From: Candidatus Peribacteraceae bacterium
GTDB taxonomy: Bacteria > Patescibacteriota > Gracilibacteria > Peribacterales > Peribacteraceae
Direction of reading: 5' to 3'
Assembly (NCBI GenBank): GCA_018061945.1
Contig: JAGOTD010000003.1
Span: 1,498 to 65,497 of the forward strand
Length of the DNA: 64,000 nucleotides
The translations under genes and the position numbers were made by a program. Every line of letters begins with the position of its first letter. The first letter of the stretch is position 1. This document shows positions 3 through 34,392 of this stretch, in pieces. The notes below the pieces were generated by a model. That model did not search any database. It saw only the letters and a list, made by a program, of their open reading frames with translations, and was not told the DNA's origin.

Positions 3-260
3 AATGCCGGCGGCGGACATACGAACACGCTTTCACTGCGCAATTTTCTGTCGTTCATCCAGACGGATCTTGGACTCAAAATGGATCCGAAATTTGCCGC
101 TGTTCGCCCGGGCGATCAGCCGATTTTCATCAGCGATAATGCCAAAGCGTTCAAAGACTTTGGCTGGAAAGCCGAGATGAATGTTTCAGATGGGATCCGT
201 GCGCTGCATACGTGGCTCGCTGCCAATCGTGAACAATTGGCGGAGTTCTACGCTCGTTAG
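3..260 (+). CDS. NAD-dependent sugar epimerase, C-terminal fragment (CDP-paratose 2-epimerase-like)
   Basis: This is the last 85 codons of a gene that begins before the window. The readable protein runs from NAGGG to a TAG stop. It resembles the C-terminus of extended short-chain dehydrogenases of the CDP-paratose/tyvelose epimerase group: an N-x-GGG segment followed by a leucine-rich helix, then a P-GDQ-x-x-x-x-SD-x-x-KA segment that ends in a GW turn. Enzymes of this group invert a sugar carbon of a nucleotide-linked hexose using bound NAD in the cytoplasm. The nucleotide-binding N-terminus is missing, so the substrate cannot be judged. The location beside glycan genes supports a sugar-nucleotide role. 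Confidence 0.6.
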   Translation, partial: NAGGGHTNTLSLRNFLSFIQTDLGLKMDPKFAAVRPGDQPIFISDNAKAFKDFGWKAEMNVSDGIRALHTWLAANREQLAEFYAR

Positions 261-8818: not shown

Positions 8819-10216
8819 ATGGATGTATCGTCCCACTCCGATCGGCAATTTTTTGATACGCTCGCTCCCAGGCGTGCGCAAGATGTCCGCAGGCATCGCG
8901 TGTATTACGCCGATCGTCTCAAGTGGCTCAAGCGTTTTATCCGTCATGATGCTTCGATCATCGAACTGGGCTGTGGTACCGGCGCCACTCTTGCTCATTT
9001 GCCGCACGCACGCAAAACCGGCATCGATTTTTCGCCGGCGATGATCGAGCTTGCCCGCAGCCACGACAAAACGAGTGAGTATTTTGTGGATGATATTCAG
9101 TCTCTCCATTATGCAAAAACATACGACTACGTTCTGCTGTTGGATACCGTCAACTTTTTAACTGATGTACAGTTGGCTTTTCGTCAGATCCGCGAAAAAT
9201 TGTGTCACTCGGGCACGCATCTCATCATCACTCATTATAATTTTCTGTGGCAGCCGCTATTTTTGATTGCCGAAAAACTGGGCTGGAAAACTAAATTCCC
9301 CGAACAAAACTGGCTGTCGCGAAACGATATTCGTAACTTGCTGCAGATGACCGGCTTCGATGTTATCGAATATGGTGAACGCTTACTCTTCCCGCTTTCG
9401 ATTCCACTCCTATCTAGGTTTTGTAACAAGTATCTCATCAGTCTTCCGTTCTTTCGAGCCTTCGCCCTCGTGAAATATGTTGTGGCACGGCCACTTCCAA
9501 CGGAAAGAATTGAGCAATCAGTCACGATTGTCTCCGCTGTCCGCAACGAAAAAGGCAATATCAGTCAGATTGTCTCGGCCATGCCAAGTATTGGCACGGC
9601 AACCGAACTCATTTTTATCGAGGGACATTCCGTCGATGGCACGTGGGAAGAAATCGAGCGCGTGATTGCGGAGTACAAAGGCCCCGTTACGGTGCGGGGT
9701 ATGAAGCAGACGGGCACCGGCAAAGCAAATGCGCTGCACTGCGGGCTTTTGGCTTCCACCAACGACATCATTATTGTCTACGATGGCGATTACACGGTGC
9801 ATCCATCGGAACTGCCGAAAATGTACGATGTTCTGGCCGACGGCAAAGCCGAATTTGTGAATGCTTCGCGTCTTGTATATCCGATGGAACAAGGATCTAT
9901 GCGCATTCTCAATTTGTTTGGCAACAAAATGTTCAGTGTGCTGTTTAGCTGGCTTTTTTCGCAGAAATTGGTCGATGTGCTGTCGCCGCTCAAAGCTTTC
10001 TCGCGCTTTCATTATCAGTACATGACCAGTCGCCGCGATCCGTTTGGCGACTTCGATCTCTTTCTGGGCGGAGCAGAGCAGCAGCTAAAAATGATGGAAG
10101 TGCCGGTCCATTACCTGGCCCGCAGTTATGGCACCACGAAAATTCGTCGCTTTCATCATGGCTGGCTGCTGCTATGCATGTGTCTGTTTGGCGCCAAGCG
10201 CATCAAGTGGATTTAA
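8819..10216 (+). CDS. fused methyltransferase - GT2 glycosyltransferase
   Basis: A 465-residue two-domain protein. Residues 1-215 are a SAM methyltransferase ([15 protein letters not shown], then [13 protein letters not shown]). Residues 235-465 are a GT2 domain with [14 protein letters not shown], a glycine-rich [10 protein letters not shown] and [11 protein letters not shown], where DGD is the metal-binding DxD-like motif. The two domains are joined without a stop in one continuous frame. The combination suggests that one polypeptide both transfers and methylates a sugar, or modifies a lipid carrier. The ATG at 8819 is chosen as the first in front of a plausible helix; the earlier frame reads into the divergent gene's promoter. 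The 3' end overlaps the convergent gmd gene by four bases. Confidence 0.8.
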
Positions 10217-11238
10217 AGAGAAATGCCGAGCGCTTTGCAGTCGGCGATCATCATCATAGACGCCAGCTCATCAACCGTCGTCTTGGCTTTCCAGCCGAGC
10301 TGACGCGCTGCTTTGGATGGATCGCCCAGCAGTAAATCCACTTCGGCTGGACGGTAGTAGCGCGGATCAATCCCGACAATTACTTTGCCTGTTTTTTTGT
10401 CGCGATACACTTCATTTTCGCCTTTCCCCTCGATGTCATACTGAAAGCCTGCTTGCTTGAGACAGATTTCCAGAAAATGACGCACAGTCGTCTTGCTGCC
10501 GGTTGCTAAAATATAATCTTCGGCTGTTGGCTGCTGCAGCATCAACCACATACCTTCCACATATTCTTTGGCATACCCCCAGTCGCGCTGTGCTTCCAGG
10601 TTTCCAAGTAAGAGTTTGTCCTGCTTGCCGGCGAGAATGCGCGCCAGGCTGAGTGTGATTTTGCGGGTAACGAAGTTTTCGCCGCGGCGTGGCGATTCAT
10701 GGTTAAACAAAATACCGTTCACTGCATACATGCCGTAACTTTCGCGGTAGTTACGCGTAAAATAAAATGCGTACGCTTTAGCGCAAGCATACGGACTGCG
10801 CGGGTAAAATGGCGTATCTTCGGTTTGTGGTGTTTGCAGTACTTTTCCGTACAGCTCGCTGCTGCTGGCTTGGTAGAAGCGGGCATTGCTCCCACTCGAA
10901 CGCAGTGCTTCCAGTAAACGTGTGGTACCAAGGCCGGTCACTTGTCCGGTGTATTCGGGAATATCGAAGCTGACAGCCACGTGCGACTGTGCCGCAAGGT
11001 TATAGATTTCATCGGGCTTCACCGTCAAAATAACGTGTAGCAAGGAATTGGAATCACCCAGATCGCCGTAGTGGAGATGCAGGTTTTTATGCGCGTCTGT
11101 CAGATGGTCGATCCGCCCGCGATTGAAGGTGGATGCGCGACGCACCAGTCCGTGAACTTCGTAGCCTTTATCCAACAGAAACTCAGCCAGGTACGATCCG
11201 TCCTGTCCGGTAATGCCTGTAATGAGTGCTTTCTTCAT
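10213..11238 (-). CDS. gmd: GDP-mannose 4,6-dehydratase
   Basis: A 341-residue extended SDR. The start [20 protein letters not shown] carries the G-x-x-G-x-x-G NAD loop in its Gmd form, [14 protein letters not shown] is the family signature, and [26 protein letters not shown] holds the Y-x-x-x-K catalytic pair, followed by [16 protein letters not shown]. It converts GDP-mannose to GDP-4-keto-6-deoxymannose, precursor of fucose, perosamine, rhamnose and colitose. It lies 16 bases downstream of the PLP-enzyme gene on the same strand, probably as an operon, which points to a 3,6-dideoxy or amino sugar. A TATCAT box sits only four bases before the ATG. The longer frame upstream is not needed. Confidence 0.95.
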
Positions 11239-11254
11239 GAGAATGATAGGAGAG

Positions 11255-12463
11255 TTACGAAAGAGTGCGAGACGAGAAAAAATCCGCAAAGACGTTTGTG
11301 ATGTAATCGAGATCCGATGCGCGTAGTCCCTGATGACAGCCGATGTAAAAACCATGTGTATTGACCCAATCAGCAACCGGGAAATCCGTCTGCACGATAT
11401 TCATAGGTGCGTAGACAGGTTGATTGATGAGCGGGAGCATATCGCGTGTTTCGACATTCCACTGCTCTAGATGCTCCACCAAATCGGATTTACTAAACGA
11501 CGCATCTTTTTTGATGACGATCGGGAACATCATGAATGCATGTTCTTGCAGGGCAGCGTCGAAGCGGGGGAGTTGGAGCCACTTGCTAAACTGCGCCAGT
11601 TTTGTTTGCAGGGCAGCAGCATTTTGTTGTCTGGCAGACAGAATGGTTGGCAGGCGCTCGAGCTGGCCAAGACCGATTGCGGCTTCCATTTCGGTTGCGC
11701 GGAAGCTAAAGCCACGTCGGATAAACCGGAAACGTCGCTTAATGACCTGCTTAAACTGCGCACCATCAATATCCTTATCATCATCAATCGATACATAAAT
11801 ACTGTCGCGCCCGTGGTTGGCGATGCTGCGTAGAATTTCGGCGTAGCGCGGATCACTCGTGACAGCCAGTCCGCCAACGCCGGTGACAATCAAGTGCGCA
11901 ACGTACGTAGAAAAACAGCTGATGTCGCCAAAAGAGCCGGCCTTCTTGCCTTTGTACGTTACCCCCATTGTTTCGCAGCTATCCTCGATAATCCGCAGAT
12001 TATGTTTCTTGGCGATCGCCAGAATAGGGTCCATGTCGGCAATGAGTCCAAACAAATGCACGACCATAATGCAGCGCGTTTTCGGCGTGATGGCTTTCTC
12101 TAATTGGGTCGGGTCCAGATTATAGGTAGTAGCGTCGCAATCCACAAATACAGGTTTCAAATTGTGATCCAGCACCACGTTGGCCGTTGCCACAAAGGTG
12201 AGTGCGGGGACAATTACTTCATCGCCATCCTGCCAATTGCCGGTTTCCTTGAGGCAGGCGACCGCAATAGAGAGCGCGCTGGTGCCGCTGTTTACAAACA
12301 CACTGAATTTGGAGTCGTGAGCTACAGCAAACTGGTGCTCGAACTTGCGACTGAACGGCCCATACGATAAACGACTGCTCGAAAGCACTTCCATCACATT
12401 GGCCTTTTCCTTCTCGCTTAAGTCGAGTGTGCCAACGCCTAGTTGTTGCAACGCTTTTTCCAT
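11255..12463 (-). CDS. DegT/RfbH-like PLP enzyme, probable sugar 3-dehydratase
   Basis: A 402-residue fold type I PLP protein of the DegT/DnrJ/EryC1/StrS family (NSGTSAL phosphate site near 58-63, [21 protein letters not shown]). Aminotransferases of the family hold PLP on a Lys inside S-F-x-x-x-K-x-x-x-x-G-x-G-G. Here the segment is [14 protein letters not shown], so His190 occupies the Lys position. A His there is the hallmark of ColD and RfbH (E1), which remove the C3 hydroxyl instead of adding an amine, and EDSCETMG also matches RfbH better than aminotransferases. Together with gmd next door, the product could be GDP-4-keto-3,6-dideoxymannose. TACACT ends six bases before the ATG. Confidence 0.8.
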
Positions 12464-12514: not shown

Positions 12515-13261
12515 TTAGACTGCTGTTTGCTGCATCGATTTTTTCTTCTCTTCGTACTGCCAACGAATGCGCAAAACAGACATAAACGCTTCGCGGATTT
12601 CGTGCCAACCTAAATTGGAAATACCGCGGCGGCGATTGATGAATACCGTCGGTACTTCGCCAATCTTCATACCCTTCAAATGCAATTGATACGCCACTTC
12701 GGAAAGCACCACGTAGCCTTTTGAGTCAATTCGATCCATTTCCAGCGCATCGATTGCTTTGCGTGTGTAACAGCGAAAGCCGTTGGTGTAGTCGGTAATG
12801 GGAATACCAAGTACCAGGCGAGCGTACTGGTTGGCAAACCGGCTGAAGATCGTGCGCTTAATGCCCCATTCTTCGATCCGGCTGCTTGGCAAGTAGCGCG
12901 AGCCGAGCACCATGTCGTAGTGGGGAATGGCATCCAGAAAGCGTTGGATTTCGGTCGGCTCATGGGAAAAGTCGCTATCCATTTCGAAAATCAAATCCAC
13001 ATTCTGCTGCATCGCGAGTTTGAATCCTTCCAGTACGGCCGATCCGCGGCCTCCTTTGCCTTGGCGTTCGAGCAGTTGCACACGGCTGCCGTGCACTGCC
13101 TGCGCATCCTTTACTTTTTGACCGGTTCCATCGGGCGACGCATCATCTACAATCAGGATGGTCATGGTCGGATACAACTCACACAGCCGATCAATCAACT
13201 GGCGGATATTTTGCGCCTCGTTAAACGTCGGAATGACTGTCAGGAGAGTAGGTTGATCCAT
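12515..13261 (-). CDS. polyprenol-phosphate mannosyltransferase (DPM1-like GT2)
   Basis: A 248-residue soluble GT2 enzyme: TVIPTFNEAQNI, ILIVDDASPDGTG, FEMDSDFSHEP with the DSD metal site, GSRYLPSSRIEEWGIKR and ITDYTNGFRCYTR. These are the signatures of dolichol/polyprenol monophosphomannose synthase. It charges polyprenyl phosphate with a sugar on the cytoplasmic face, which supplies the GT-C enzymes encoded around it. The protein has no C-terminal membrane helices. TATACT at 13269-13274 lies seven bases before the ATG, and the oppositely oriented gene at 13342 has its own TATACT 55 bases away. Confidence 0.9.
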   Translation of the reverse strand: MDQPTLLTVIPTFNEAQNIRQLIDRLCELYPTMTILIVDDASPDGTGQKVKDAQAVHGSRVQLLERQGKGGRGSAVLEGFKLAMQQNVDLIFEMDSDFSHEPTEIQRFLDAIPHYDMVLGSRYLPSSRIEEWGIKRTIFSRFANQYARLVLGIPITDYTNGFRCYTRKAIDALEMDRIDSKGYVVLSEVAYQLHLKGMKIGEVPTVFINRRRGISNLGWHEIREAFMSVLRIRWQYEEKKKSMQQTAV

Positions 13262-33459: not shown

Positions 33460-34392
33460 ATGACGAGAAGCTGGAAAAATAAGCGGGTAGTCGTAACCGG
33501 TGCCACGGGTTTTGTCGGCAGTGTGCTGGTAGAACATTTGCTCTCTCTGGGCGCTTCTGTACGTGCACCTATTCGGTCGGACAACTATCGCGCCTTGTCT
33601 AAAAAGCGCTCTGAAATCGAATGGGTAGAAGGCGATTTGCGCGAAGCTGAGTATTGCAGTCAGCTTCTGGAAGGAGTTGATCATATTTTTCACTTGGCAT
33701 CGCATCGTCGCAATATCGATTTTCACCGCAAGCACTGTAGCGACGTTATGAACGGCAACATAGAAATGTCGCTCGCTCTTATTCATGCCATGAAATCCCA
33801 CAAGAAAACGAGTGTGACGTTTTTTAGCAGCGCCAACGTTCCGCCTGCTATCGACGTGATTGCGGTTGCCCAGGAACAGCAGCTCGATGGTTACATTCTC
33901 GGTAAAGCGGTATCTGAAACTCTCTGGCTAGCATCGTCTCATCAGTTGGGCTTCCCCCTTCTCATCGTTCGTCCTGTTGGCGTGTATGGACCGCGCGATA
34001 CTTTCTCGAAAGACGCCAATGTCATTCCGTCTCTCATGGTCAAAGCGCGTGATAGTAAAGATGTGCTGCAGGTGTGGGGAAGCGGCATGCAGAAGCGCGT
34101 GTTTTTGTATGTAGATGATTTGGTTCAAGCAGTCTTCACACTCATCGACAGTGATGTGCATGGTATTCAGTACATTGCACCAACCGGCATGGTAACGATT
34201 GCCGAACTTGCCGAACAGATTCGGCAGATTGTGAATCCAGCACTCACAGTACAGTTCGATACAACGCAGCCCGAAGGCAGTCGCTCGATTGCAGTGCTGC
34301 CTATGCATCCTGCATTGGAATCGTTGCAATGGACAACGCTTGTCGATGGTTTACAGAAAACGTATGACGGATGGGTGACGAAGGGCAAGTAA
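33460..34392 (+). CDS. NAD-dependent epimerase/dehydratase
   Basis: A 310-residue extended SDR: RVVVTGATGFVGSVLVEHLL is the NAD loop, DHIFHLASHRRNIDFH the strand-4 region, and the catalytic area reads TVFFSSANVPP with DGYILGKAVSETLW providing the Y-x-x-x-K pair. LIVRPVGVYGPRD and RVFLYVDDLVQAVF are the later motifs. The substrate is a nucleotide sugar of unknown type. The ATG at 33460 is supported by TACTCT seven bases upstream. It lies 107 bases from the divergent FkbM pseudogene and is followed by the GtrA gene. Confidence 0.83.
   Translation: MTRSWKNKRVVVTGATGFVGSVLVEHLLSLGASVRAPIRSDNYRALSKKRSEIEWVEGDLREAEYCSQLLEGVDHIFHLASHRRNIDFHRKHCSDVMNGNIEMSLALIHAMKSHKKTSVTFFSSANVPPAIDVIAVAQEQQLDGYILGKAVSETLWLASSHQLGFPLLIVRPVGVYGPRDTFSKDANVIPSLMVKARDSKDVLQVWGSGMQKRVFLYVDDLVQAVFTLIDSDVHGIQYIAPTGMVTIAELAEQIRQIVNPALTVQFDTTQPEGSRSIAVLPMHPALESLQWTTLVDGLQKTYDGWVTKGK

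Follow-up and report, generated by a model that had tools for sequence, protein, structure and literature searches.

We conclude that a DegT-fold protein of Candidatus Peribacteraceae, in which a histidine occupies the position of the PLP-binding lysine of aminotransferases, is most likely a GDP-4-keto-6-deoxymannose 3-dehydratase, judging from its sequence and from the genes that surround it. The protein, here called DegT-His, is encoded in the window (the whole 64,000-nucleotide stretch that was analyzed) and its family is a subfamily distinct in sequence from other His-bearing DegT enzymes, being neither ColD nor RfbH. We put the probability of the reading as a whole, that is, a PMP-dependent nucleotide-sugar 3-dehydratase acting in the pathway proposed below, at roughly 0.75. 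What is observed, and what the argument builds on, is the histidine, its conservation, the placement of the family in trees, the missing iron-sulfur cysteines of E1, the order of the genes and the fusions of DegT-His to other enzymes. The features of the window that are used in the argument are as follows.

3..260, plus strand: 3′ end of a CDP-tyvelose 2-epimerase-like SDR gene; the full gene starts upstream of the window (G000:C9:487-)
10213..11238, minus strand: gmd, GDP-mannose 4,6-dehydratase (TIGR01472 at 530 bits, cut-off 415; PF16363)
11255..12463, minus strand: DegT-fold PMP-type enzyme, proposed GDP-4-keto-6-deoxy-D-mannose 3-dehydratase (PF01041, His190, trees, AU tests, AF2 model)
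11894..11896, minus strand: codon CAC of the catalytic His190 (sequence; alignment to ColD, E1 and perosamine synthase)
12515..13261, minus strand: GT2 of the polyprenyl-phosphate-mannose-synthase (DPM) kind (PF00535; related GT2 domains are fused to DegT-His elsewhere)
33460..34392, plus strand: SDR related to Fcl/GDP-mannose 3,5-epimerase, candidate 4-keto reductase (Tyr-Lys kept; Asn replaces the epimerase Cys and His)

A conserved histidine in place of the catalytic lysine

The initial annotation had located the DegT gene at 11255-12463 without giving a strand, and an open reading frame of 402 amino acids with an ATG start is indeed present there, on the minus strand. Its product matches PF01041 at 312 bits (Pfam); among NCBIfam models RfbH scores highest, with 267 bits, which is below the cut-off of that model (423 bits). 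The histidine that had been claimed for the PLP-lysine position 190 is present in the expected motif (codon 11896-11894) and is aligned to Lys186 of GDP-perosamine synthase (chain index 188) on the one hand and to His188 of ColD (index 190) and His220 of E1 on the other. Replacement of this Lys by His is the feature by which 3-dehydratases are recognized (PMC8987622).

A scan of genome contigs for relatives of DegT-His returned 71 loci; identities were 46-80% for 70 of them, and the remaining one, L101 (37% identity), is an outlier that groups with ColD in the tree. His190 is found in 72 of 72 aligned family rows, taken from Peribacteria as well as from many further lineages of bacteria and archaea, and a His is also at this site in all 37 readable relatives from virus-classed contigs. 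Because the residue is kept in all 72 aligned members, from organisms down to 46% identity, it reflects neither chance nor sequencing error. The lysine has not merely shifted, since the sole conserved Lys of the 72-row alignment, K72 (67 K, 5 R), lies away from the motif; no conserved Lys was found near His190 in this alignment. Carriers of the family in the CPR include Peribacteria, Magasanikbacteria, Sungbacteria, Buchananbacteria, Roizmanbacteria and others, those in the DPANN archaea are Woesearchaeota, Nanoarchaeota and Micrarchaeota, and further carriers belong to Omnitrophota, Planctomycetota, Chloroflexota, Acidobacteriota, Gemmatimonadota, Myxococcota and more phyla. The distribution is patchy, with DegT-His in 6 of 59 close relatives and, in a sample of 380 genomes of the phylum, in 9.

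In trees that took in Lys-type DegT proteins, ColD, E1 and other His proteins, the DegT-His family formed one clade (support 100/99) and every His lineage fell on the same side of one 100/99 branch, a His/Lys split that was also obtained after masking the catalytic motif and the EDSCE motif. AU tests rejected the grouping of the family with ColD (p-AU 0.000252) and with perosamine synthase (p-AU 0.0086), both groupings having been picked after the first tree was seen. The tree, being unrooted, is consistent with one common origin of the His enzymes without proving it. Tree placement bears out the kinship with C3-dehydratase lineages, as opposed to Lys aminotransferases, that the initial annotation had proposed, and the trees, the AU test and the alignment all place DegT-His outside any aminotransferase clade in which the Lys is shifted elsewhere. 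The likeness to ColD and RfbH that it had drawn stands in part: the protein is on the His side of the tree and resembles ColD in its lack of Fe-S cysteines, but it falls in neither of the two clades and instead belongs to a separate His clade.

Other His-type DegT proteins were seen in the course of this work. One, encoded on plasmid pDMC1 of Solidesulfovibrio magneticus (L102:4977-6182), has a Cys-rich loop (RGCSCPSC...C), forms its own branch and adjoins Fcl-like and nucleotidyltransferase genes. A protein encoded on pSymB of Sinorhizobium meliloti (L103:4001-5149), together with L007, makes up another His clade that lies near E1 and is without the Fe-S cysteines (SFYGSHVITAAGNGG).

Association of DegT-His with Gmd and a GT2 glycosyltransferase

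The GT2, DegT-His and gmd genes are consecutive and form a compact three-gene set on the minus strand, with GT2 51 bp upstream and gmd 16 bp downstream of DegT-His, bounded on both sides by opposite-strand genes. Across the family, gmd was near DegT-His in 33 of 67 loci and adjacent to it in 21, many of the contigs being short, and an Fcl/ColC-like SDR with catalytic Cys and His was within three genes of DegT-His in 17 of the 67. All six DegT-His carriers among the 59 relatives have gmd over cut-off.

The window neighbors of DegT-His, Gmd and GT2, are also its fusion partners in relatives. An in-frame Gmd-DegT(His) fusion of 733 aa is encoded in the MAG bacterium C24_metabat.bin.60 (L043:6978-9176), where what had been taken for a separate gmd neighbor at position 0 turned out to be part of this real fusion. 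DegT(His)-GT2 fusions were found at seven loci of different organisms (L053, L057, L068, L069, L080, L085 and L090); their C-terminal domain of ∼235 aa is GT2/DPM-like by profile comparison (probability 99.8%), with dolichol-phosphate mannose synthase as the best solved match (E 2e-7), and Pfam searches with single C-terminal fusion domains gave no match. Three Chloroflexi loci (L081, L084 and L087) have the reverse arrangement, GT2-DegT(His), with an N-terminal GT2. An apparent fusion at L065 was rejected because its reading frame crosses N, and N-terminal extensions at L034 and L055 were judged to be spurious read-through of a simple ORF caller.

A scan of IMG/VR identified 38 family members, 37 of which have the His and one of which is cut before the site. 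At 17 of these loci gmd is nearby, and nine virus-classed contigs resemble the colitose set gmd-ColD-ColC in that they hold gmd, DegT-His and an Fcl/ColC-like SDR with both Cys and His, a full colitose-type set. Among these records (L164-L201; for example L186:54-3119, L176:1355-5164 and L185), gmd, the Fcl/ColC-like SDR and DegT-His were observed beside glycosyltransferase genes. A large-terminase match over cut-off was present in 4 of 14 IMG/VR records tested, so at least those four are likely phages; the other virus-classed records may be fragments or wrongly classed. Searches of putative structural neighbors on the viral contigs against PHROGs gave no match.

Adjacency, fusion and the complete viral cassettes support the proposal of the initial annotation that the neighboring gmd supplies a ColD-type substrate. 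One could argue instead that DegT-His is a 3-dehydratase, or another PMP-dependent elimination enzyme, that takes as substrate a GDP- or NDP-sugar formed later or of another kind, or acts at a different position, and that Gmd is a mere neighbor. Such a view draws on the presence of gmd near only about half of the loci, on the frequency of gmd in genomes without DegT-His (it is over cut-off in 29 of the 59 relative genomes, often beside perosamine-type DegT genes) and on a clade distinct from that of ColD; because the family is not sister to ColD, its substrate and cycle may differ. We nevertheless consider it unlikely in view of the in-frame Gmd fusion, the tight gmd adjacency, the viral gmd-Fcl-DegT cassettes and the lack of a CDP-glucose 4,6-dehydratase over cut-off in any of the six carriers (the window genome, G000, is 94.6% complete), the last of which also sets DegT-His apart from RfbH/E1.

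Comparison with characterized DegT enzymes

The AlphaFold2 model of DegT-His (pLDDT 91.7) was closest among solved folds to E1/RfbH (CDP-4-keto-6-deoxyglucose 3-dehydrase; PDB 3bcx, 3bb8; Z 51.7), GDP-perosamine synthase (PDB 3bn1, 3dr4, 3dr7; Z 51.5, rmsd 1.4) and ColD (GDP-4-keto-6-deoxy-D-mannose 3-dehydratase of E. coli; PDB 2gms, 3b8x; Z 49.0, 30% identity to 3b8x). Because all DegT enzymes listed score above 46 and Z differences below 1 are ties, the fold alone does not decide function. The closest solved sequences (phmmer, PDB) were GDP-perosamine synthase at 216 bits, E1/RfbH at 190 bits and ColD at 180 bits.

That the closest PDB sequence is GDP-perosamine synthase, which uses the same substrate as that proposed for DegT-His, would suit a Lys-less aminotransferase that holds PMP/PLP non-covalently and yields GDP-perosamine or a single-turnover product with the 3-OH kept. 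This reading also gains from SpnQ, a His-bearing enzyme that is able to transaminate under some conditions, but ColD and E1 showed no transamination under the same conditions (PMC8987622). In addition, GDP-perosamine synthase has its own Lys186 and a 4-amino sugar product, its grouping with the family was rejected, DegT-His is placed among the His lineages in the tree, and Lys perosamine-type enzymes are already used by relatives; we thus judge transamination to be quite improbable. A DegT paralogue that is catalytically dead or structural, although loss of the catalytic lysine is a possible sign of a pseudoenzyme, is scarcely credible here, given that the His, E160-D161-S162-C163-E164, R219-D220 and R255 are invariant in an alignment of 42 relatives reaching down to 46% identity, and given the fusions to active-looking Gmd and GT2 domains.

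DegT-His shares features with two known 3-dehydratases. It has in common with ColD the DegT fold, the His at the Lys position, the ED-x-CE motif, the absence of further Fe-S cysteines and a substrate that would be supplied by Gmd; with RfbH/E1 it shares the Ala-His motif, a GRD loop and the best-scoring NCBIfam model. It differs from ColD in that Ala precedes the His, where ColD has Ser187, in that the family has STYxAH..TGVGG where ColD has SSFYSHHIATMEGG, and in the conserved HGRD loop of the family and the fusion of some members to Gmd or a DPM-like GT2. The difference from E1 lies in the 2Fe-2S site, the cysteines of which we take to be Cys 193, 251, 253 and 263. A counterpart of Cys 193 is kept in the family, as it is in ColD, and Cys 251, 253 and 263 have no counterpart in the DegT-His family alignment. 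Because these iron-sulfur cysteines of E1 are absent from the family, its chemistry should be ColD-like. Three nucleotide-sugar 3-dehydratases, E1, ColD and SpnQ, are called well characterized; E1 and SpnQ need a 2Fe-2S cluster and an electron partner, whereas ColD has no Fe-S cluster and its PMP is regenerated with glutamate (PMC8987622). For the DegT-His family we regard a ColD-like cofactor cycle as the likelier one, the fine active-site contacts being read from the alignment alone.

A candidate reductase and the epimerase-like gene at the window edge

Unlike the colitose set, the window genome yielded no Fcl/ColC-type SDR with both catalytic residues: its Fcl-like SDRs are without the Cys/His pair, and the candidate reductase at 33460-34392 has Asn at both positions. 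No full-length Fcl over cut-off was found in the carriers; in G021, a true Fcl that carries the Cys and the His is split. The guanylyltransferase type that was searched, the bifunctional GMP-PMI model, gave no match over cut-off in the six carriers.

The SDR at 33460-34392 occurs in 6 of 6 carriers compared with 11 of 30 other genomes of the family (hand-computed hypergeometric p ∼0.006, uncorrected for kinship). In G024 a homologue follows DegT-His immediately, and in G014 one follows DegT-gmd. The idea that this SDR is a dedicated partner of DegT-His was weakened by its presence in relatives without DegT-His, in which several homologues are directly beside gmd, and it may therefore serve another branch. 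Its general role is probably the reduction of 4-keto sugars that derive from Gmd; completion of the DegT-His pathway by this SDR is only a candidate reading.

The initial annotation had further pointed to a paratose-epimerase-like gene at the start of the window as a sign of dideoxy sugars. The gene is real, and its full copy matches solved CDP-tyvelose 2-epimerases best (283 and 267 bits; next 116), but it does not track with DegT-His: of the 59 relatives, 2 of the 6 carriers have it, as do 9 non-carriers, and we rejected it as support for a dideoxy pathway. Copies in several relatives share contigs with perosamine-type DegT and gmd genes, which hints at a GDP-sugar 2-epimerase. TaCPa2E, a relative of this gene product, epimerizes CDP-, UDP-, TDP-, GDP- and ADP-glucose (PMC7851689), and given this broad nucleotide range and the distribution of the gene, the latter provides no evidence for a dideoxy pathway.

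Proposed pathway

From these observations we infer a reaction, a substrate, a cofactor cycle, a reductase and a glycosyl acceptor as follows. Gmd would convert GDP-D-mannose to GDP-4-keto-6-deoxy-D-mannose. DegT-His would bind PMP without an internal aldimine and form a Schiff base with the 4-keto group of this sugar, His190 would abstract the proton at C4′ to allow departure of the 3-hydroxyl, and hydrolysis would release GDP-4-keto-3,6-dideoxy-mannose. PMP would be restored from glutamate as in ColD, with no iron-sulfur cluster and no partner reductase. Reduction of the 4-keto group would fall to a separate SDR, and transfer of the sugar to a polyprenyl carrier for surface glycans to the DPM-like GT2 encoded in the gene set.

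The best reductase candidate of the window genome has neither the Cys nor the His of the epimerases, which leaves room for a D-series (tyvelose-type) product. We give a low probability to the suggestion that the window organism converts GDP-mannose directly into a D-series 3,6-dideoxyhexose, either tyvelose (3,6-dideoxy-D-mannose) or the corresponding C4 epimer, by way of Gmd, DegT-His and a non-epimerizing 4-reductase encoded at 33460-34392. We likewise infer that 3,6-dideoxyhexoses may be present in the coat of this bacterium.

Implications

A search of the available literature returned no relevant paper that links colitose or tyvelose with Patescibacteria/CPR, which does not prove that none exists. 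If the D-series reading is true, a sugar known as a product of the CDP route would also be reached by a GDP route, and this in bacteria that are not known to make LPS. The clade is covered by the general family name "DegT aminotransferase," and DegT proteins without the Lys should not be called aminotransferases. The natural fusions to Gmd and to the DPM-like transferase are ready constructs for probing substrate and acceptor. Finally, 3,6-dideoxy sugars, known from enterobacterial O-antigens, may be far more widely distributed, to judge from the presence of a separate His clade in CPR bacteria and DPANN archaea as well as in many further phyla and on phage-like contigs.
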